From a virus: a stretch of DNA of 26,851 nt. The position numbers and the translations under genes are program-made. Shown in pieces: positions 5,415-26,851 of this stretch. Numbering within the stretch: position 1 is the first letter of the stretch; each line of letters opens with the position of its first letter. The notes below the pieces were generated by a model, which had not been told where the DNA came from, made no database searches, and worked only from the letters and a program-made list of their open reading frames with translations. The stretch spans positions 1 to 26,851 of the IMG/VR virus record IMGVR_UViG_3300038455_000032; one strand, written 5' to 3'.

Positions 5415-6626
5415 ATGCGCCAGTCAATCACCTTCAGATCTTCGTCGAACGGATCCGCTGCGCCGAGTGCTGCGCCTACGCCTGAAGCCCCGGCCGCCGG
5501 AAAGGCGACGGCGGCCGAGGGCTCCGAAGCAACCACAGCTCCGCAAACCGAGGCTACGCCGGATACGACTGACGCTCTAGTAGACGCGATGCTCGGGAAC
5601 ATGGGCGAGATCGCGAGCCGAGCGGAGCCTGACGAGCCCGAAGGTGCTCCCGACCCGAATGCCGAGCCGGAGACCGAGACGTCAACCGAGACCGAGACGG
5701 AATCGGAAGCGAAGGCCGACGACGCGGAGCCCGCCACGCCGGAGCCGCAATACGATGATTTCGCGGACGACAAGCCGTGGACCGCTGAGCGGTTGAAGGC
5801 CGGAGCGAATCAGCTACGGACGGCACGTCGCGAGCTCCAGAACTGGTACAACTCGCTCACGGCGCGCGACGAGCGACGCGAGAAGCAGCAAGAGAAGCTG
5901 AACACCGAGAAGCGTGAGTTCAAGGTGTTGAGCGAGCGGCTAGCAGTCGACGTCAATGCGCTCTTCAACGGCACGCCAGCTCAGAGCCTCGAAGCACTCG
6001 CGCGCATCCGCGGCAAGTCAGCGGAGCAGGCGTACGAGGAGCTGAGCTATGCGATTCTCGGCAAACGCAAAGCGGGTGCCGATGCCCCTGTCAACGACGA
6101 GACTCGCCAGCTTCTCGCCAAGATCGTCGAGCGGCTTGATGCCCAGGACGCGCGACTCGAGGAAAGCCGCAAGGCTAACGAGAGTGATGGCGCGATCCAA
6201 TCATGCTTGCGCGAGGCACCCGAAACGTGGCCGCTCGTGGCCGCGTCCGCGGAGAAGGACCGGAAGGCCGGGCGAGACCTTGTAGCGATAGTAAAAGCCG
6301 TGATTCGGAGCAATGGATGGGAGGCGCTTGACATCGACTCTGTTTTCGATAAGCTGGAACGCGAGCTGCGAAAGCAGCAGAGGATGGCCTCGGGCGAGCC
6401 GACAAGTCGCCCCGCCGGCTCCGGGCCGGGCGCGGAACGGGAACCCGCAGTAAAAAGCCCGAAACAGCAGGCGCAGAGTCGACCTGGACGGACCGTGACC
6501 CCAGCTCTCTCGACCGAAAGCGGCGGACGCCGAGTCAAGCCGCGGACGGAAAAAGAGAAACGCGACGCCTTCGCTAGAGCGGTTCCAGATAGCATTCTAG
6601 ACCAGCTGGCCAACTTCGGCGGCTGA
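5415..6626 (+). CDS. Scaffold-like head assembly protein, 403 aa
   Basis: The position between portal and major capsid protein and the architecture fit a scaffolding protein that guides procapsid assembly and is then released or degraded. Residues 1-118 are low-complexity and very acidic (runs of Glu/Thr/Pro). Residues about 125-175 and 230-255 are strongly coiled-coil-like (TARRELQNWYNSLTARDERR). A basic stretch near 370-385 (RRVKPRTEKEKRD) resembles the coat-binding ends of known scaffolds. GAGGAG at 5402-5407 gives a strong ribosome binding site for ATG 5415. No Ser-His protease motif is visible, so it is unlikely to be a fused protease-scaffold. Confidence 0.75.
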   Translation: MRQSITFRSSSNGSAAPSAAPTPEAPAAGKATAAEGSEATTAPQTEATPDTTDALVDAMLGNMGEIASRAEPDEPEGAPDPNAEPETETSTETETESEAKADDAEPATPEPQYDDFADDKPWTAERLKAGANQLRTARRELQNWYNSLTARDERREKQQEKLNTEKREFKVLSERLAVDVNALFNGTPAQSLEALARIRGKSAEQAYEELSYAILGKRKAGADAPVNDETRQLLAKIVERLDAQDARLEESRKANESDGAIQSCLREAPETWPLVAASAEKDRKAGRDLVAIVKAVIRSNGWEALDIDSVFDKLERELRKQQRMASGEPTSRPAGSGPGAEREPAVKSPKQQAQSRPGRTVTPALSTESGGRRVKPRTEKEKRDAFARAVPDSILDQLANFGG

Positions 6627-10603: not shown

Positions 10604-11344
10604 ATGGCCCTAACGCGCATATTCCGCGGCATCCAAGATGCGATCGATTACCTCTACGCGCACGGTGCGTTGAATGTCGACGTGAACATCACGACGCTGC
10701 AGGGTCAGGTCGCGACCGCGATGAACGACATCAAGTCGTTGCTCGCGCGCCCTCCGGGCACGGACGGACGAGACGGAGCCGACGGCGAGATGGGACCGCC
10801 GGGCGCAGCGGGGGCCGCCGGACCAGCCGGAGCGGCGGGAGCAGCCGGGCCGATGGGGCCGCCGGGAATTGACGGTCAGGAGGGTCCCGAGGGGCCGATG
10901 GGGCCGCCGGGGCCGCAGGGTCCACAGGGACCGGCAGGCGGCGGTGGGGGAGCTTCGGCGACGACTGTCGAGAAAGACCTCGGCTCGACGCCAGTCTTTC
11001 GCGGCACGTTTTCGATCACGGATGCTGCTATCAGCGGCACGAGCAAGGTGCTCGTCTGGCAGGCGCAGGGGCCCTACACCGGCAAGGGGACGCAAGCGAG
11101 CGACGCCGAAATGGATCGCGTGGAGATCGCGTACGTCCAGCCGGCTGCAGGTAGTGCGCTTGTTGGCTGGCAAACTCCGGCGACGTATTTCGAGATTCCG
11201 TATGCGCTGCAGCCGGGCGACCAAGGGAGACCAAACAGCGTTATCGGCGCGGGCGCTCAGCGGCGAGAACACGAGATGGTGCAACGCGCGCGGCGGGGCA
11301 GAGTGCGCGGGAATATCAAGTTTCATTACGTGGTGTTCGCATGA
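10604..11344 (+). CDS. Collagen-like fibre protein, 246 aa
   Basis: Three regions are visible. Residues 1-49 are helical with hydrophobic heptads ([26 protein letters not shown]) and could form a trimeric coiled coil. Residues 52-111 are an uninterrupted run of 20 Gly-X-Y triplets, as in collagen triple helices. After a Gly-rich hinge, 118-246 is a beta-rich head domain ([45 protein letters not shown]). Such proteins form slender trimeric fibres on phage heads or tails. Its position between adaptor and nozzle genes fits a tail or neck fibre; a tail-needle role is less certain. The stop overlaps the next ATG. Confidence 0.8.
10757..10936 (+). repeat. Twenty Gly-X-Y collagen triplets
   Basis: The segment encodes residues 52-111 of the fibre protein as consecutive G-X-Y codons, with Pro or Ala common at X and Y ([12 protein letters not shown]). 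DNA repeats such as GGGCCGATGGGGCCGCCGGG recur within it at 10848-10867 and, slightly altered, near 10890-10909. Length change in units of nine bases by recombination is therefore possible. Confidence 0.85.
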
Positions 11345-12694: not shown

Positions 12695-13023
12695 ACATGT
12701 CAGTCATCAGCAAAAGAGTTTACGGCCCCACCGGTCTGCCGAACAGCGCGGCCACGCGGTACACGGTGCCCGCCAATACCCGGGCGATCGTCCGCCACAT
12801 CCACATTTCGAACACCAGCGCAGGCCCGGTCAACTTGACGATCAGCGTCGGAGCGGACGCGGCCGGAACGCGAATCTTTGACGCTTACCCGGTTCCCGCG
12901 TCATCGGTGCTGGACATCTGGGGCCCGTACACATTGACGGCTGCCGAAATCATTCAAGCGTTCGGCAGCGTGAACGGTCAGCTAACGATGACGATAATCG
13001 TGGATGAGATGCTAGAAGCGTGA
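12691..13023 (+). CDS. Small beta-sandwich phage protein, 110 aa
   Basis: I recognise the general pattern from many phage and prophage genomes but not a name: YTVPANTRAIVRHIHISNTS, then strand-rich sequence with AAGTRIFDAYPVPASSVLDI and a closing MTIIVDEM. Such proteins are single beta-sandwich domains of unknown function near tail genes. GTG 12691 overlaps the previous stop; ATG 12697 two codons later has GGTGAAG upstream and may be the true start. Its own stop overlaps the GTG of the nozzle gene. Confidence 0.65.
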   Translation: MNMSVISKRVYGPTGLPNSAATRYTVPANTRAIVRHIHISNTSAGPVNLTISVGADAAGTRIFDAYPVPASSVLDIWGPYTLTAAEIIQAFGSVNGQLTMTIIVDEMLEA

Positions 13024-16000
13024 CCCTCGCTCCCCGCCGCACATCGATATCTCTCGACGGCAGCCTAGCGCAGCACGTCGCGCCCGAAGTTGTGCGGCCT
13101 CCGTATGTGCGGCGCCTCGTAAATGCTCGGTGGAATAAAGAGGGCCAGATCGCGAAGCGACTCGGAACCACAAATATTCCGAATGTCCGATTCGACACGG
13201 GGCTTGCGTTCACTGAGAGCAAACGTCTGTTCACGCGCGAGAGTCAACTCTTACATGTCGACGGACACTTTATTGATTCGCGCGTAGACCCGACAGCGTC
13301 CGTATGGAAGCGTCTAGACCGCGTGCCCGAGGCACTGCTAGACCGCTTTCCGGTGCACGCCGAATACTCGGCGACCGGGAATCTGACGAATGCCTACATT
13401 GCATACGCGGGTTCATATCTCTGCGTTGTGTACGAGGATCAAACCTCGCACGCGATCACGGCCATCGTCATCGACGCGGATCGCGACTCGGTCGTCAAGA
13501 TCCAGACGCTCGAGGGCACCGGTCGCTATCCGCGCGTCATTGGTCTTGATGGCGACTTTATTGCGATGTGGGTATCGACGTCTGTAGATCGCCTGCGCGT
13601 GTCCAAGCTGACCGTTAGCACACTGACCTGGAGCGCACCAGCGAACCTGCTCACTGACATCCAGGCGGATGAGACGAGTTGGGACACAGTGCCAGACGAC
13701 AATGGCGGCGCATTCTTCGTCGTCTACGTCAACGACTCAGGACAGCTCGACGTCAAACGCTTCAACAATTCGTTGTCGCAGACGCATGCCGCACTGAATC
13801 AGCGAAGCGGGAAATCGGTCCTTAACGTCGCGATCCATGAAGAGGGCTCCCGGGTCTATGTCGCTCTGCAAAACGATACAGACAATGCGATCGAATGCAT
13901 CGGCTATGTGAGCACCGACCTGACATCAGGTTTCGCGGTGCAGACCATACAGGCGCTTGCCGGCAACCCATTCGGATCGATTACTGTCGGATCGCGCACC
14001 GCAACCGATGCATGGATCGTGTGGGAGCTTGCGTTCAGCGTAGCGACTCCTCCGACGAATCAATCGGCGATTCAGTGGAAGACGATCAGCAGCACCGGAA
14101 CGGTCACGGCTACGTTGCACGAGACGCGCAACTGCCAGCTCGCCAGCCGCATCTTCCGCATCGACTCACATTCTTATGTGACCATAAACACTGCGGCGGC
14201 GAGCCCAGAGGAATACGGACTCTGTCTTATAGAGCTCGGCAATAGTTACACGGCCTCCACGGATTATCGCGCGCGCCCCGTGGCGCGATGGGCTGACGCT
14301 GAGCTGTATGATCCATTCGGGTTCAATCACCTGTCCGGCATTGGGTACGACGGTAACTTAACCTTTTGGTCCGCGTTCGCAATGAAGGATTTTGAGAAAC
14401 CAGGCACATCGCGTGGAGTCAGCATTGAGTACACCCGCATGCGAATGGGCGATCCTCGGGGACCTGGGGGCGGCATCACGCGGTGGCAGTGCATTGAGTC
14501 GCACCGCGGCGCAATGATTCCGGCAGGCTTTCCGCATGCATTCGACGGCGAGCGCGCCTTTGAAGCTGGCTTCTCATGGTATCCGTGGGTGCAGCACTCG
14601 TCGCTGATCGCCGGCGGGTCGCTCCCGTTGAACGAGGAGCAAGAGTACCTACTCTGTTACGTTTACACCGATGCGATTGGCCGTGTGTGGCGTTCGACGC
14701 CGAGTGTGTCGGTTGTACTAACCCCAACCGTAGGCGGAACGCAAACCGTACGACTCGCGGTCCCTCATTACACCGTGAGTTCTATGCATGACGTGGACGT
14801 CCTCGATCTGTCTAGCAAGTTCAAGAACCCCGTGGGAATCGAAGTCTACAGACGAAACAATACAACCTCCGCCAATGGACCATTCATCCGGATTCTGACC
14901 GTCGTTGGCGGCGGCCCCCAGCTCAGCGTGCAGCCATGCGACCCGTTATCCACAGATTTTCTTCTAATAACTGATACGGGATTGACTGACGCAAACCAGC
15001 CTGAGCTTTACACGACAGGCGGAGTCCAGGAGCACGAAGTTCCGCCGCCGTTCGCGTTCATGGTGGCGTTCGATGGTCGCGTACTCGGGGCAGACAGGCG
15101 CACCGTATGGCCATCCCAGGAATTGGTGGCGCGCGAGGGAGTCTTTTGGAACAGCGAAAATAGCTTCCGCGTTGATGAGGACGGCGACATCACGGCGTTT
15201 AGCGTTCAAGACTTTTCATGCATCGTGTGGAAACGTAACGGCATCTACTATTTCCAGGGTTCTGGCCCAGACGATACCGGTATCAACTCCGCATACACAA
15301 CTCCTGTGCGCGTGTCGACCGATGATGGGTGCATCGAAGCGCGAAGCGTCGCGTTAACGCCTGTCGGCACATTCTACCAGTCCGAGCGCGGCATCATGCT
15401 GTTGGACAGGCAATTCAACACGGATTACATCGGCGCTCCCGTCGAAGATGAACTCGCCGCGTTCCCCGAAATCTGCGCTGCCACTGTTGTCACCGAAGAG
15501 AGCGAGGTGCGGTTCTGGTGTCGCGGAGTAGATGACGCCATCTCTGACTTTCGCATGCTCGTGTACGACTACCAGCGTAAACGCTGGTGCGTGCGACGCT
15601 ATTTCTTCGACGGTGAATTCAGTTACGGAGGAGCGATTACTGCGCTCGTGCATCGCGGTGATTACATCTGGGCGCGCACGTCAGGCAAAATCTTCCGTGA
15701 GACAGACGCCAAGTTCAGCGACTTTGACGGAGCGACGGATCTGTATGTCGAACGCGACTTAGAGACTGCCGATCTGGCGCTCGACGGCTTCGCTGGCTTT
15801 CAGCGTATCTGGTATCTGACGCTCACCGGCAAGGCGCTCTACTCGGATATTCTCGAGGCACCATCGATTGTCGTCGAGGTCTATACGGATCATGCCGCAC
15901 AGGACTCGACACCAATCGTCACCTACACCTTTTTGCCGCCGGTCATTGCGGCGCAGTCGGCACGGTTTCCGCTGATGCAGCTGCGGATGGGTCCACTGCC

Positions 16001-16157
16001 GACGGCCGCGCAAAACAGCCAGGCTATTCGCGTGCGAGTGCGGGAGCTCGAGGTTCCGTCCGACACATTCAACGAGGGCGTTGCGTGGACGAGCTTGATG
16101 CTAGAATATGGCGTCGAGACGGGCCGCGGTCGTTTCCCTGCGACCCAGAGGGCGTGA
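13020..16157 (+). CDS. Large tail nozzle/stopper-like protein, 1045 aa
   Basis: This is the largest gene of the window. I call it a nozzle or stopper protein of the P22 gp10 / T7 gp12 type, which plugs the portal-adaptor channel and forms the tail tip. The N-terminus has the typical opening (YVRRLVNARWNKEGQIAKRLGTT). Repeated strand-turn units through the body suggest a large beta-propeller. About residues 740-800 contain the characteristic stretch with GINSAYTTPVRVSTDDGCIE and GTFYQSERGIMLLDR. At 1045 residues it is about twice P22 gp10 (about 470) and larger than T7 gp12 (about 790), so it carries extra domains. It starts with a GTG overlapping the preceding stop. A combined nozzle and receptor-binding role is possible but not shown. 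Confidence 0.65.
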   Translation: MTLAPRRTSISLDGSLAQHVAPEVVRPPYVRRLVNARWNKEGQIAKRLGTTNIPNVRFDTGLAFTESKRLFTRESQLLHVDGHFIDSRVDPTASVWKRLDRVPEALLDRFPVHAEYSATGNLTNAYIAYAGSYLCVVYEDQTSHAITAIVIDADRDSVVKIQTLEGTGRYPRVIGLDGDFIAMWVSTSVDRLRVSKLTVSTLTWSAPANLLTDIQADETSWDTVPDDNGGAFFVVYVNDSGQLDVKRFNNSLSQTHAALNQRSGKSVLNVAIHEEGSRVYVALQNDTDNAIECIGYVSTDLTSGFAVQTIQALAGNPFGSITVGSRTATDAWIVWELAFSVATPPTNQSAIQWKTISSTGTVTATLHETRNCQLASRIFRIDSHSYVTINTAAASPEEYGLCLIELGNSYTASTDYRARPVARWADAELYDPFGFNHLSGIGYDGNLTFWSAFAMKDFEKPGTSRGVSIEYTRMRMGDPRGPGGGITRWQCIESHRGAMIPAGFPHAFDGERAFEAGFSWYPWVQHSSLIAGGSLPLNEEQEYLLCYVYTDAIGRVWRSTPSVSVVLTPTVGGTQTVRLAVPHYTVSSMHDVDVLDLSSKFKNPVGIEVYRRNNTTSANGPFIRILTVVGGGPQLSVQPCDPLSTDFLLITDTGLTDANQPELYTTGGVQEHEVPPPFAFMVAFDGRVLGADRRTVWPSQELVAREGVFWNSENSFRVDEDGDITAFSVQDFSCIVWKRNGIYYFQGSGPDDTGINSAYTTPVRVSTDDGCIEARSVALTPVGTFYQSERGIMLLDRQFNTDYIGAPVEDELAAFPEICAATVVTEESEVRFWCRGVDDAISDFRMLVYDYQRKRWCVRRYFFDGEFSYGGAITALVHRGDYIWARTSGKIFRETDAKFSDFDGATDLYVERDLETADLALDGFAGFQRIWYLTLTGKALYSDILEAPSIVVEVYTDHAAQDSTPIVTYTFLPPVIAAQSARFPLMQLRMGPLPTAAQNSQAIRVRVRELEVPSDTFNEGVAWTSLMLEYGVETGRGRFPATQRA

Positions 16158-22449: not shown

Positions 22450-23208
22450 ATGGGACTCATCCGACGTCCGGGGGAGCGATTTAACCGGCGGCGGATTCCG
22501 AGCGGTGACGGGGGCGCCATCGTGTCTCCGCTCACCATCATGGGCGCTGCCACCGTTGCATGGTGGCGCTCGGACCTTGGCGTAACGATTGGGACGGGAG
22601 TCTCCCAGTGGAGCGACCAGAGCGGCAACGGTTTCCACCTGACGCAGGGAACGGGCGGCGCGCAGCCCACCTTCGAGGCTTCGGGCGGCCCCAATTCGAC
22701 TCCCTCGATTCTGTTCGACGGCTCCGACGATCGACTGATCAATGCGGCTATCGACCGCGCGGCTCCAGCCACGACGCCCACGATTATCTGGATGGTTGTG
22801 AGTCAGGTTACGTGGACGAATGGCGACCGCGTATGCGGCTTTGGCGCTGTGGCCACGCACATGAGCCTGACGCAAAACCCAGTGACGCCGCAGTGGCGTA
22901 TGTTGAACACCGTGCTCGTCAACACGAACGGAGCTCTCACGATCGGCAACTGGGGGCGGGTCGAGGCTGGATTTCTTGGTACCACGGCAGACTACCTCAA
23001 GATCATCGCGACCAACGTTGCTGCTGGCACGAGCGCCGGCAACACCGATCCGGCAGCGGGCTTCAGTCTTGGTACCGATCCGGTGGGAGGCGTGCCTGGC
23101 AATTTCCGAATCAGCGAGCTCGCGATATTCAACGCTCAACCAAGCGCCGGTCAGACGACGGCTCTCGATGCGTACGTCACGGGCCGTTACGGATCAGGAT
23201 TGGTCTGA
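22450..23208 (+). CDS. LamG/concanavalin-like receptor-binding protein, 252 aa
   Basis: Residues 37-245 read as a LamG/concanavalin A-type beta-sandwich. WWRSDLGV and VSQWSDQSGNGFHLTQ give the usual first strands, PSILFDGSDDRL the central strand, and RISELAIFN with a closing TALDAYVTGRYG helix the end. These domains bind sugars and are frequent on phage tail spikes and fibres. The N-terminus is short and basic (MGLIRRPGERFNRRRIPSG) and resembles the region after the second start of the next gene. The ribosome binding site before ATG 22450 is weak. The stop overlaps the next ATG (TGATG). Confidence 0.72.
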   Translation: MGLIRRPGERFNRRRIPSGDGGAIVSPLTIMGAATVAWWRSDLGVTIGTGVSQWSDQSGNGFHLTQGTGGAQPTFEASGGPNSTPSILFDGSDDRLINAAIDRAAPATTPTIIWMVVSQVTWTNGDRVCGFGAVATHMSLTQNPVTPQWRMLNTVLVNTNGALTIGNWGRVEAGFLGTTADYLKIIATNVAAGTSAGNTDPAAGFSLGTDPVGGVPGNFRISELAIFNAQPSAGQTTALDAYVTGRYGSGLV

Positions 23209-24782
23209 TGCGATGGCTCGTGCTTCTGCTGCTGATTCTGGCCTGCGGGGACCCGGACATGTTTGGTAGACGCGGAGGGCGGAGCAATCGGCGCGGCATC
23301 TGCGCGAGCGCCGGTAGCGGTCTGTTCCTGCCGCCGCAGTCTCCAACGTCCACGCCCTTTCCCGAGAAGTGGGACATCGGACTTTGGTACGCGGACGATC
23401 AACCTGGAGCGATAGGCGCGGACGTCGCCAGCGTCGTACCACGAATCGGAAACTATACGCTTACAGCGCCCGCGAATGCTCCGAGCCTCGAGACCTGGCC
23501 TGGGTCGACCGGCGGCAAGGCCATCTTTTTCGACAGCGCGAACAGCGAGTGTCTTCAGAGCGCAGCCGCCGGCGCTGCGTTCGCTGGCGAGGACAACCCG
23601 CTGACCATCTTTATGGTCCTTCAGGAGGTCCCGAACGGCGGGGCGGCGCAGACCATAGTCGGGTACAGCTCGAATCTGAGCACCACCCCGCGGGTCGTGC
23701 TCTTTCACGGCAACGGCAATTCCTACCGAATCCAGAAGCAGTCCACGACTGGGGTTTTTAGCTTCGTTCCGCACAGCCTACCTCGCATGATCCGTATGCG
23801 CGAGACGGGCATTGCTCAGAGCTTTGCTGTGGATGACTTCGCCGACCCTACTACGGCTGCTGTCAACGTGGGTTCTCAGGCGACAACGCACTTGACTGTG
23901 GGCGCGCAGCAGAACGGCGGGAGTATCGTCAATTTCAGCCGCTATTATCTGAAGGTGCTGGGGCTGTCCACGCAGTCATTCTCTGCGGAGGAGGAAGCCT
24001 ACTGCTATGACCTGTGGGCCGGCAATCTTGCAGACGGAATAATCTACGGACCGACAGTAGACGTGGATGTGCTGCATTGGGGCGGGCAGTCGAACGTCCA
24101 GACCTACAATGTGACGGGTGCGTTAGCCGGATTCCCGAGGTCAGACATTCGCAATTGGATCGAGTCGAACGACAACTATGTATATGTGTCGACGGCCCTC
24201 GAGAGCTTGGGGCCGAAGGATGTGGCCGGGACTTTGTATTACGGCCCATGGGTGGAGGGCAGCGCAGCGGCACAAGCAACGCTCAGCAGGCCGATGCTAG
24301 TTACGATGATCGGTGACGGGGGAACAGGCATCGCTACATGGCTCAGCAACATGGGGACGCCGTTTCAAAATCTGTACTGGCAGTGGCGCCAGCTAGCTCG
24401 CAAAGCACAAGTTAGGTTCGGCGGTAACCAACATCGGCAGACGATTTGGGTACAGGGGGAGAGCGATGCTCAGAGCGCGCCGGCAGCTGCTGCTTACGAG
24501 GCGAATCTAGGCACGCTGGCAACACAGCAACGCGCGCTCTGGGATGCCTCGATGCCGATTCATATTCTCGAACTGAACAACAACTTCACCGGTCTATCCG
24601 AGCGCGCCACGGTCAGAGCAGCACAGGCAAGCTATGTAGCGGGCGACGCGCACGCCTATCTAATCGACGTGGATGGCATGAGCGGAGGAACGATTCAGGG
24701 GGACAACCTTCACTATAATGAGGCTGGGGTGGCCGAGATCGCCGCGCTGTGCGCGCCATCGATTGTAGCGGCGGCGCCATGA
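23208..24782 (+). CDS. LamG-like domain fused to sialate O-acetylesterase (SASA/SGNH) domain, with lipoprotein-type start, 524 aa
   Basis: Residues 50-265 are a second LamG-like domain with the same layout as the upstream protein (WDIGLWYADDQ, KAIFFDSANSECLQS, PLTIFMVLQEV). Residues 285-520 are a SASA-type carbohydrate esterase: GGQSN with nucleophile S295, QGESD at 416-420, and D499-x2-H502. Such enzymes remove acetyl groups from sugars. The first 13 residues (MRWLVLLLLILAC) are a short basic start, a hydrophobic core and a lipobox Cys at 13. A second in-frame ATG at codon 18 (23259) has GGGGA seven bases upstream and gives MFGRRGGRSNRRGI, matching the basic N-terminus of the upstream protein. 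ATG 23208 has AGGA eight bases upstream. Either start, or both, may be used. The open frame upstream to 22560 is a shadow of the neighbouring gene. Confidence 0.8.
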   Translation: MRWLVLLLLILACGDPDMFGRRGGRSNRRGICASAGSGLFLPPQSPTSTPFPEKWDIGLWYADDQPGAIGADVASVVPRIGNYTLTAPANAPSLETWPGSTGGKAIFFDSANSECLQSAAAGAAFAGEDNPLTIFMVLQEVPNGGAAQTIVGYSSNLSTTPRVVLFHGNGNSYRIQKQSTTGVFSFVPHSLPRMIRMRETGIAQSFAVDDFADPTTAAVNVGSQATTHLTVGAQQNGGSIVNFSRYYLKVLGLSTQSFSAEEEAYCYDLWAGNLADGIIYGPTVDVDVLHWGGQSNVQTYNVTGALAGFPRSDIRNWIESNDNYVYVSTALESLGPKDVAGTLYYGPWVEGSAAAQATLSRPMLVTMIGDGGTGIATWLSNMGTPFQNLYWQWRQLARKAQVRFGGNQHRQTIWVQGESDAQSAPAAAAYEANLGTLATQQRALWDASMPIHILELNNNFTGLSERATVRAAQASYVAGDAHAYLIDVDGMSGGTIQGDNLHYNEAGVAEIAALCAPSIVAAAP

Positions 24783-24788
24783 AAGGAT

Positions 24789-25082
24789 ATGGGTGATGTG
24801 GTGGACGCTCGCGGAGTTTTTTCTCAGCCTCGCGGCCTCGGTTGGCTTCTGGCTCTGCTTCTCGTCGACTGTAGACCGAAGGCTCCTGAGGCTCCTCCTT
24901 ACCCTTGCGGAGAGGAGCTGATCGTGCTCCAGGCTGAGCGGGCTAGCGAGCGACGCGCGATCATCGATAGCGGAGCCTGCCGCGGCATGCTCACAGTCAC
25001 CGAGTGCCCAGCTCTCAGGCAGCTCTATGAGCGCTGGGCGAAGGTGCTGGATCGTTGGGAAGAATGCTCGTCGAAACCCTAG
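24789..25082 (+). CDS. Small Cys-rich protein with hydrophobic start, spanin-like, 97 aa
   Basis: The C-terminal part (after about 24910) clearly has coding-type third positions; the first 120 bases do not. ATG 24789 is only one base after AAGGA, so GTG 24798 or 24801 may be the real start. The hydrophobic stretch GWLLALLLVDC followed by a Pro-rich, Cys-containing segment (RPKAPEAPPYPC) resembles an Rz1-type outer-membrane spanin. However, Asp just before the Cys breaks the lipobox. The C-terminal half is helical with Cys residues (MLTVTECPALRQLYERWAKV). It overlaps a 41-residue membrane protein in another frame. Confidence 0.45.
   Translation: MGDVVDARGVFSQPRGLGWLLALLLVDCRPKAPEAPPYPCGEELIVLQAERASERRAIIDSGACRGMLTVTECPALRQLYERWAKVLDRWEECSSKP
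24796..24921 (+). CDS. Very small membrane protein overlapping the preceding frame, 41 aa
   Basis: ATG 24796 lies exactly eight bases after AAGGA (24783-24787), the best-placed start in this region. Over 24796-24910 its third positions are richer in G/C than those of the overlapping 24789 frame. The product is one hydrophobic helix (LAEFFLSLAASVGFWLCF) followed by a basic amphipathic tail (DRRLLRLLLTLAERS). Immediately ahead of the endolysin block, it could be a holin-like or inner-membrane spanin-like protein. It is shorter than known members, so the role is a guess. Confidence 0.4.
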   Translation: MWWTLAEFFLSLAASVGFWLCFSSTVDRRLLRLLLTLAERS

Positions 25083-25234: not shown

Positions 25235-25440
25235 ACGGCTACGAAGCGATCGCGATCGCCGACGCCGTGCTTGCGAAGACGCTCGCGCAAGTCGACGACC
25301 CGCAGCAGCGGCAGTCCGCGGGCCGCGTGTTGATCGGGCGCATTCGCGAGATGTGCGGCATTCGACCGAGCGACAGTCAGCAGATGGCGGCAGTCAACAT
25401 CGAGACTGTGCTGCGCGGAAAGGATGATCCGACGCGATGA
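25231..25440 (+). CDS. Small hypothetical protein, 69 aa
   Basis: Unrecognised. GGGGG precedes the ATG and both ends overlap neighbours as ATGA. The protein is helical (EAIAIADAVLAKTLAQVDDP, AGRVLIGRIREMCGIRP) and soluble. Its coupling directly to the endolysin gene suggests a lysis-time role, but nothing in the sequence identifies one. Confidence 0.58.
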   Translation: MNGYEAIAIADAVLAKTLAQVDDPQQRQSAGRVLIGRIREMCGIRPSDSQQMAAVNIETVLRGKDDPTR

Positions 25441-26246
25441 AAGCCACCTACGTCCCGCCGCAGATCACGACACCTGAGCCGCACGCGGTAGCGCCCGCTT
25501 ACTTTGACGAGCTGTTGCGTCTGACGAACGGAACGCCGTCACACAAGGCGGTTGCTGTTCTTCTCGGCCAGTACGCGCTCGAGACGGGTAACGGCAAGAG
25601 TTGCTACAACTGGAATCTCGGGAATATCAAGGCGGGGACCGAGTATGATGGCCTCTATACCTGCATCCGGCTGAACGAGCGGCTGAAGCAGGCCGATGGC
25701 TCGTACGCCTACGTTTGGTTCAGCCCCGAAGGCGAGGAGCGGCCGAAGGGTAACGTCATCAAGAGCTACGACGTTCCGCCGGGGCACCCGCAGACCCGCA
25801 TGCGAGCTCACGAGACCCTGGCCGATGGCGTGAGAGCCAAGCTCGAGTTTCTCTCCAAGCCCCATTGGCGACCGGCGCTCGAGGTGGCTCTCACTGGCGA
25901 TGCTGCAGCCTACGTGACGAAGGTTCGGGCTCTCGGTTACTTCACTGCCGAGCTCGGGCCTTACCAGCGTGCCGTAGTCTCGCTGGCAGCCAAGTGGCTA
26001 CCGGTCGTACAAGGCGCAACGAGCGCGCCGCAGCCGGTCGAGGAGGATGCGCAGACGTGCAACGACATGGCCGAATGCATGCGAGTCGAGCTTCCTGACT
26101 GGCTTCGGGCGCGCGTCAACGTTCATGTCGCGCTTGGCCCGAGTCTCGACGATTACTGGGCAGAGCGTAAGCTACCGCACGACAGCGATCCAACGATGCC
26201 AGGCGTGCAGCTGCCCGACACCGAGCCTCCGAAGGGAGTCGGATGA
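25437..26246 (+). CDS. Endolysin, GH73/lysozyme-like glucosaminidase, 269 aa
   Basis: It cuts the glycan strands of host peptidoglycan at the end of infection. Residues 20-190 look like a glucosaminidase (FlgJ-type) domain: AVLLGQYALETGNGKS with the expected catalytic Glu at 49, NWNLGNIKA at 59-66, the MRAHETLADGVRAKLEFL helix and LGYFTAELGPYQRAVVSLA near 166-184. There is no signal peptide, so export must come from a holin. Residues 195-269 are a Pro/Asp-rich extension of unknown role with C208 and C214. ATG 25437 overlaps the previous stop, and the stop overlaps the next ATG. Confidence 0.8.
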   Translation: MKATYVPPQITTPEPHAVAPAYFDELLRLTNGTPSHKAVAVLLGQYALETGNGKSCYNWNLGNIKAGTEYDGLYTCIRLNERLKQADGSYAYVWFSPEGEERPKGNVIKSYDVPPGHPQTRMRAHETLADGVRAKLEFLSKPHWRPALEVALTGDAAAYVTKVRALGYFTAELGPYQRAVVSLAAKWLPVVQGATSAPQPVEEDAQTCNDMAECMRVELPDWLRARVNVHVALGPSLDDYWAERKLPHDSDPTMPGVQLPDTEPPKGVG

Positions 26247-26484: not shown

Positions 26485-26721
26485 ATGGATCTCGCTCAGG
26501 CTCTGATGATAGCAATCGGAACGCTAGTGGGGGTGATCGGCCTGCTGTTCAAGGAGCTGAAGGCGGCTCTGGCCAGGCTCGAGAAGGAACAGGACGACTG
26601 CGAGCAGGAAAAGAAGGAGCTGAACGACGCCTTCAAGGCGGAGCTGAAGGAGCACGGCAAGGCGTACGCCCAGCTGGCCAGGGAGCATCGGGAGGCCAGA
26701 GAGGAACTCAAGACTCGCTAG
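26485..26721 (+). CDS. Membrane-anchored coiled-coil protein, inner-membrane spanin-like, 78 aa
   Basis: One N-terminal membrane helix (ALMIAIGTLVGVIGLLF, residues 6-22) is followed by an unbroken charged coiled coil (LARLEKEQDDCEQEKKELND to the end), the layout of Rz-type inner-membrane spanins and some holin-associated proteins. GGAGAG at 26471-26476 serves as ribosome binding site. A GTG at 26481 in another frame uses the same site and stays open to the window end. No Rz1-type lipoprotein is nested inside with a usable lipobox. Confidence 0.65.
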   Translation: MDLAQALMIAIGTLVGVIGLLFKELKAALARLEKEQDDCEQEKKELNDAFKAELKEHGKAYAQLAREHREAREELKTR

Positions 26722-26851
26722 CCGAGTTTGATGAGTGGGAAGAGGACACAGCCATAATCAGGCAGAAGGTGGCACACAATAAACGTATCGCAGAAGAGAG
26801 CGCTCGCGAGCTCACCGAGTATCTGCGCACGTCGCGCCCGCCACCAAAGCC
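26721..26851 (+). CDS. Partial reading frame at the window end
   Basis: After the spanin-like stop, frame 3 is coding-like to the edge: EFDEWEEDTAIIRQKVAHNK, then a charged helix and a Pro-rich end. There is no ATG or GTG in the right place. The only upstream start in this frame is GTG 26481, whose first 80 codons overlap the spanin-like gene and read as low-complexity Gly/Arg. It could be a continuation of the coiled coil after a -1 shift, a single-base sequence error, or a new gene with an unusual start. Confidence 0.35.

Follow-up and report, generated by a model that had tools for sequence, protein, structure and literature searches.

A predicted lipoprotein O-acetylesterase encoded next to a LamG-type virion protein gene in a phage genome fragment

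In phage T5 the gene that directly follows the receptor-binding gene encodes Llp, and other phages are suspected of encoding exclusion lipoproteins downstream of gpJ (PMC9586334). A Cor-like lipoprotein adjoins the tail-fibre genes of Serratia phage OS31 (PMC7556043). Llp, the best-studied phage exclusion lipoprotein, binds and jams a protein receptor. Virion deacetylases of the SASA/SGNH type that act on the acetyl groups of phage receptors are also established (PMC13123978, PMC7556043). Because exclusion lipoproteins occur beside receptor-binding genes and virion deacetylases act on receptor acetyl groups, it is reasonable to suppose that exclusion by the phage described below may be enzymatic. 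Here we describe a locus whose best reading, to which we give an even chance, is that a putative receptor-binding gene is followed, where other phages have exclusion lipoproteins of the Llp/Cor type, by the gene for a lipid-anchored SASA-type O-acetylesterase. This reading is built on observed reading frames, a signal, domains and a comparison with relatives.

The DNA analyzed here, hereafter the window, is a virus record of 26,851 bases and represents a linear fragment. On its + strand, structural genes are followed by a LamG-type gene, the esterase gene, small genes, a putative endolysin gene and a weakly Rz-spanin-like gene (Table 1). From position 10604 onward the genes are separated by gaps of no more than 13 nt, and the ATG of the esterase (23208-23210) overlaps the LamG stop codon in the sequence TGATG. 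Just past the esterase, the small frames 24789-25082 and 24793-24921 overlap one another; one has a membrane-spanning stretch, and the second, rich in Pro and Cys, contains a hydrophobic segment that ends in VDC. The product of 24789-25082 is possibly lysis-associated, and the two frames are possibly an overlapping lysis gene pair. A further frame, 26708-26851, overlaps the Rz-spanin-like gene and leaves the end of the record.

Table 1. Features of the window around the esterase gene, with the evidence for each
Feature	Position	Strand	Basis or remark
Internal-virion-protein-like gene	13020-16157	+	phrog_511, E 3.4e-8
LamG-type virion protein gene, 252 aa, directly 5' of esterase; N-terminus MGLIRRPGERFNRRRIPS	22450-23208	+	phrog_10356 virion structural protein, E 7e-13
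AGGA, candidate ribosome-binding site for the long form	23196-23199	+	8 nt upstream of ATG 23208; duplex energy -5.0
Esterase gene, long form, 524 aa, one open frame; start overlaps LamG stop	23208-24782	+	
Predicted lipoprotein signal MRWLVLLLLILA, 12 residues, hydrophobic, plus lipobox Cys13 (+2 Gly)	23208-23246	+	
GGGGA, candidate ribosome-binding site for the short form	23247-23251	+	7 nt upstream of ATG 23259; duplex energy -5.7
Internal ATG and Arg-rich peptide MFGRRGGRSNRRGI	23259-23300	+	7/11 match to LamG N-terminus; not in L002 esterase
LamG-like middle module, residues 18-276	23259-24035	+	Pairwise comparison with upstream LamG protein
SGNH/SASA (CE6-like) O-acetylesterase domain	24045-24779	+	PF03629, 48.1 bits (cut-off 24.8), E 1.5e-12
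Small Pro/Cys-rich protein 3' of esterase	24789-25082	+	ORF; no family match
Putative endolysin, weak glucosaminidase similarity	25437-26246	+	PF01832, E 0.0064, below cut-off; phrog_3513 endolysin, E 0.02
Weak Rz-spanin-like coiled-coil protein	26485-26721	+	

Translated from ATG 23208, the long form begins with MRWLVLLLLILA, followed by Cys13, GDPD, Met18 and FGRRGGRSNRRGI. The start and its AGGA eight bases upstream can be read directly in the sequence, as a first-pass annotation of this DNA had reported. That annotation also called the signal textbook-like. It does fit the lipoprotein pattern (a short basic n-region, a hydrophobic h-region and a lipobox Cys at +1) and it does end at Cys13, but the lipobox, L-I-L-A-C, is an allowed one in which the Leu at -2 is not textbook. 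Mean hydropathy of the signal is 3.24, against 2.3 for the signal of the related esterase in contig L002. When both strands of the window were scanned for start codons with at least the next 45 codons open (n=888), the lipobox pattern was matched by 23208 and by three nested starts of one antisense frame, which is Ser/Cys-rich; 23208 is the only plausible match in the window. Not one of 5,148 open starts in first-order Markov DNA matched. A chance hydrophobic run was ruled out by these two scans. Judged from its sequence, the long form is probably a real lipoprotein.

Scans of viral and genome contigs with the gene, its parts and the L002 esterase, together with tblastn of phage records, recovered L002 as the only esterase relative, and conservation therefore rests on two sequences; the portal gene, used as another route to relatives, gave no match. 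The L002 contig carries baseplate genes that by eye are contractile-tail-like, and its esterase lies beside tail genes. Its LamG gene (84% amino acid and 82% nucleotide identity to that of the window) runs through an overlapping TGATG into an esterase gene that starts at 5729. The L002 signal, MGCQGDRVKQWLTLTVAIVIAG before the lipobox Cys (also written ...VKQWLTLTVAIVIAG before that Cys), has diverged from the window's and is fused straight to the esterase, which is 48% identical to the window's within the esterase domain. DNA similarity of the LamG genes extends through the TGATG and ends there, which suggests that the esterase genes have diverged or been swapped, both still opening with a lipoprotein signal. 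At their N-terminal ends the two LamG genes are unrelated (22450-22524 in the window, 4968-5045 in L002) despite the 82% DNA identity, as if a move of the module to a phage with another type of tail brought a change of docking end.

At locus L005 the slot directly after the LamG gene encodes a trypsin-like lipoprotein (5631-6371; PF13365, E 7e-15), with a signal, MRRWLVLAFLFLLA before the Cys, much like the window's. A predicted lipoprotein gene directly downstream of a LamG virion-type, putatively receptor-binding gene is found in the window, L002 and L005; as these are 3 of about 50 distinct LamG loci, the slot is not universally filled in this way. Two further lipoprotein-like starts were seen among these loci: an apparent second small one (MRWLWLLLAFGC) at 6380 of L005, after the protease gene, and a 204-aa predicted lipoprotein (MMRWMLIIAVLAG before the Cys) at 1147-1761 of L055, about 2 kb upstream of a LamG gene.

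The esterase frame contains a second possible start, ATG 23259, which lies 17 codons after the first and has GGGGA seven bases upstream, again as first read. Initiation there would remove the signal, though not exactly, as had been claimed, since the five further residues CGDPD would be lost too. The anti-SD energy at this ATG is equalled or bettered by 10 of the 95 internal ATGs, that at 23208 by 15 of the 95, and 20-26% of random positions reach the energies of the two esterase starts. By comparison with the 95 internal ATGs, the second in-frame start has no distinctly good ribosome site. Ribosome sites were therefore rejected as a means of telling the two starts apart.

Behind Met18, 7 of the 11 residues of RRGGRSNRRGI are the same as in RPGERFNRRRI, from the N-terminus of the LamG protein. 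The claimed match has a p of about 0.05 by itself, but it is collinear with a longer esterase-LamG alignment for which p is about 1e-4. Some LamG proteins that stand alone in phages begin in a similar way, and Arg-rich LamG N-termini occur in L027 (MFLTRRRR) and L032 (MFPVSRFRGRFR); the peptide is absent from both the esterase and the LamG protein of L002. Tandem LamG genes are present in L032 (3941-5521) and L033 (3397-4977), the first of them beginning MFPVSRFRGRFRTKTFG, and parallel the window's order of LamG and then LamG-esterase.

These features can be read to mean that one gene yields two products, an envelope-anchored deacetylase from the first start and a virion protein that begins at Met18 and docks through the Arg-rich peptide it shares with the LamG protein. 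Both N-termini look purposeful, one as a signal and the other as a LamG-like Arg-rich end of the kind seen in L027 and L032, and in-frame second starts are known in phage endolysin genes (PMC6832245). Moreover, the window pair shares the peptide despite far-diverged LamG domains, and the L002 LamG protein differs at its N-terminus despite 84% identity, a pattern expected of a docking peptide specific to the virion. L002, too, has an ATG soon after the lipobox Cys (CGTEM, versus CGDPDM in the window). We nevertheless consider two products unlikely, given a second ribosome site no better than those of 10 of the 95 internal ATGs, a peptide match that by itself is at p about 0.05, and an L002 esterase without the peptide. 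What holds of the first-pass annotation's dual-form idea is a genuine signal on a phage esterase beside a virion-type LamG gene, kept in L002 though not in sequence, and a layout like that of superinfection-exclusion lipoproteins (PMC9586334, PMC7556043). By the annotation's own refuting criterion (relatives without the hydrophobic prefix or the second ATG), L002 goes only halfway toward refuting the idea: a lipobox signal and a later ATG recur there, and the supposed virion-anchor peptide is missing from both its esterase and its LamG protein.

The Arg-rich peptide opens what appears to be a middle module of about 259 residues (Met18 to about 276), compared with 252 for the full LamG protein. 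Aligned with the upstream LamG protein, the module scores 77, against 37.7 +/- 6.1 for shuffled sequences (0 of 2000 as high), and without its N-terminus it still scores 70 against 37.4 (2 of 2000); the score with the L002 LamG is 72, and BLASTP with composition adjustment on gives E 0.001. A LamG family HMM built from nine LamG proteins misses the module and hhalign comparison is weak; the module is read as LamG-like from its pairwise alignments with the upstream protein and the L002 LamG. The module and the upstream LamG protein look like distant paralogues, with modest homology. On that view ATG 23259 could be a start codon inherited from a LamG gene, and the simplest history would be that a whole LamG frame was put between signal and catalytic domain, start codon included.

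The LamG-like N-terminus could also mean that 23259 is the only start, the 17-codon prefix being a relic or coincidence. The product would then be a virion deacetylase put together in the cytoplasm and made up of LamG and esterase parts, like G7C gp63.1 or the Vi-phage spikes. SASA/SGNH domains are indeed common in virion receptor-binding proteins (PMC13123978, PMC7556043), and the Arg directly after the signal would disfavour export. However, the 888-start scan argues that the signal is not chance, independent signals occupy the same slot in L002 and L005, and the L002 gene is just signal and esterase. Because window gaps from 10604 onward are 13 nt or less, 23259 as the sole start would also leave an unusual gap of 50 nt, the largest there. 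We regard this explanation, too, as unlikely.

Export of the long form deserves separate attention. The mature protein has five Arg at +9 to +17 and a net charge of +3 over its first 18 residues, a charge tied for the highest in a set of a dozen or so lipoproteins predicted from related loci, doubtful frames included. Positive charges early in the mature protein reportedly block Sec export, and Arg is disfavoured at such positions (PMC5468347); another analysis found no charge pattern beyond +5 (PMC2638155). Going by its title, MacIntyre 1990 (a reference in PMC5468347) indicates that signal optimisation can relieve such a block, and the window's signal is very hydrophobic. The five Arg might impair export of the long form, but they neither kill nor favour the lipoprotein reading, and the possible block is the best reason for keeping the two-product idea alive.

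In the esterase part of the protein, the Pfam SASA match spans residues 359-516, and alignment with the L002 esterase widens the domain to about residue 280. The SGNH motifs GQSN, GES and DxLH are retained in that alignment. Ser295 (GQSN, 24090-24092), Asp499 (24702-24704) and His502 (DNLH, 24711-24713), which from knowledge of the family we take to be catalytic residues, are invariant between the two proteins. The AlphaFold model is too poor for firm fold claims (pLDDT 30 for the whole protein, 39 for the esterase domain); the best Foldseek matches (1zmb, 7kmm, 2apj) agree weakly with SASA.

Periplasmic SGNH peptidoglycan O-acetylesterases exist, and their existence favours what we see as the main functional rival, namely that the lipoprotein deacetylates periplasmic peptidoglycan so that the endolysin can cut it. 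The position of the gene, just 5' of the putative endolysin and the small membrane/spanin-like genes, would suit such a lysis helper. However, the SASA/CE6 matches point to polysaccharide or sialate acetylesterases, and the attached LamG-like module suggests binding of a sugar other than peptidoglycan. Furthermore, the corresponding slot of L005 encodes a protease, and the L002 gene adjoins tail genes. A role in lysis seems quite unlikely.

For the preferred reading, that of a lipid-anchored esterase acting at the surface of the infected cell, we propose the following sequence of events. A LamG-like module with its own Met and Arg-rich start would have been inserted whole into an L002-like lipoprotein esterase, between signal and catalytic domain, leaving ATG 23259 as an inherited start. 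The main product would be the long form, started at ATG 23208 through coupling to the LamG gene and expressed late, together with the tail and lysis genes. It would leave the cytoplasm through Sec, receive its lipid at Cys13 and, as the +2 Gly rule predicts, reach the outer membrane, where the anchored protein would carry both a LamG-like module and a SASA/CE6-type O-acetylesterase. There the enzyme would most likely strip O-acetyl groups from a surface polysaccharide that serves the phage as receptor, resulting in less re-adsorption or in easier departure of progeny. In other words, we infer the lipidation, location, timing, substrate and biological role of the long form, the last being superinfection exclusion or progeny release.

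A broader idea, which we hold to be a long shot, is that phages combine the gene for a LamG receptor-binding protein with one for a lipid-anchored hydrolase (an esterase in the window and L002, a protease in L005), which would rid infected cells of the receptor, and that here the same gene also yields the matching virion enzyme from its second start. The three loci, two with esterases and one with a protease right after a LamG gene, provide a concrete, testable set. In the open-access literature searched, we found no lipid-anchored phage SASA esterase and no phage protease lipoprotein beside a tail gene.

One phage hydrolase gene gives two products, the second being putative here, in the endolysins Lys170, 2638A and LysTP712, and in LysTP712 an internal start occurs together with a signal peptide; there, however, the second product is a truncated part, such as a cell-wall-binding domain, and not a differently located enzyme as proposed for the window (PMC6832245). 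The NanS-p prophage sialate O-acetylesterases are likewise SASA esterases whose late-region genes immediately precede lysis genes, but they have a DUF1737 N-terminal domain, another C-terminal domain and no link to a LamG virion protein, and the paper describing them mentions neither lipoprotein nor signal peptide (PMC10462455). A PF03629/SGNH acetylesterase among tail genes is shared with G7C gp63.1, the Vi-phage spikes, Klebsiella prophage fibres and PhiBZS1_p27 (PMC13123978, PMC7556043); those deacetylases are described as virion parts, whereas the window gene opens with a lipoprotein signal.

The genes for T5 Llp and for Cor of the T1/N15/phi80 type lie directly downstream of or beside a receptor-binding or tail-fibre gene (PMC9586334, PMC7556043), and the predicted lipoprotein gene of the window directly follows a LamG gene that may encode a receptor-binding protein. 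Unlike Llp and Cor, which are small (under about 100 aa) and non-enzymatic, the window protein has 524 aa with SASA and LamG-like parts; Llp jams its receptor, and the window protein is a predicted enzyme. If our reading is true, it could explain how sugar-receptor phages avoid sticking to infected cells and debris, and an acetyl-removing lipoprotein would be a bacterial-virus counterpart of the receptor-destroying enzymes of animal viruses.
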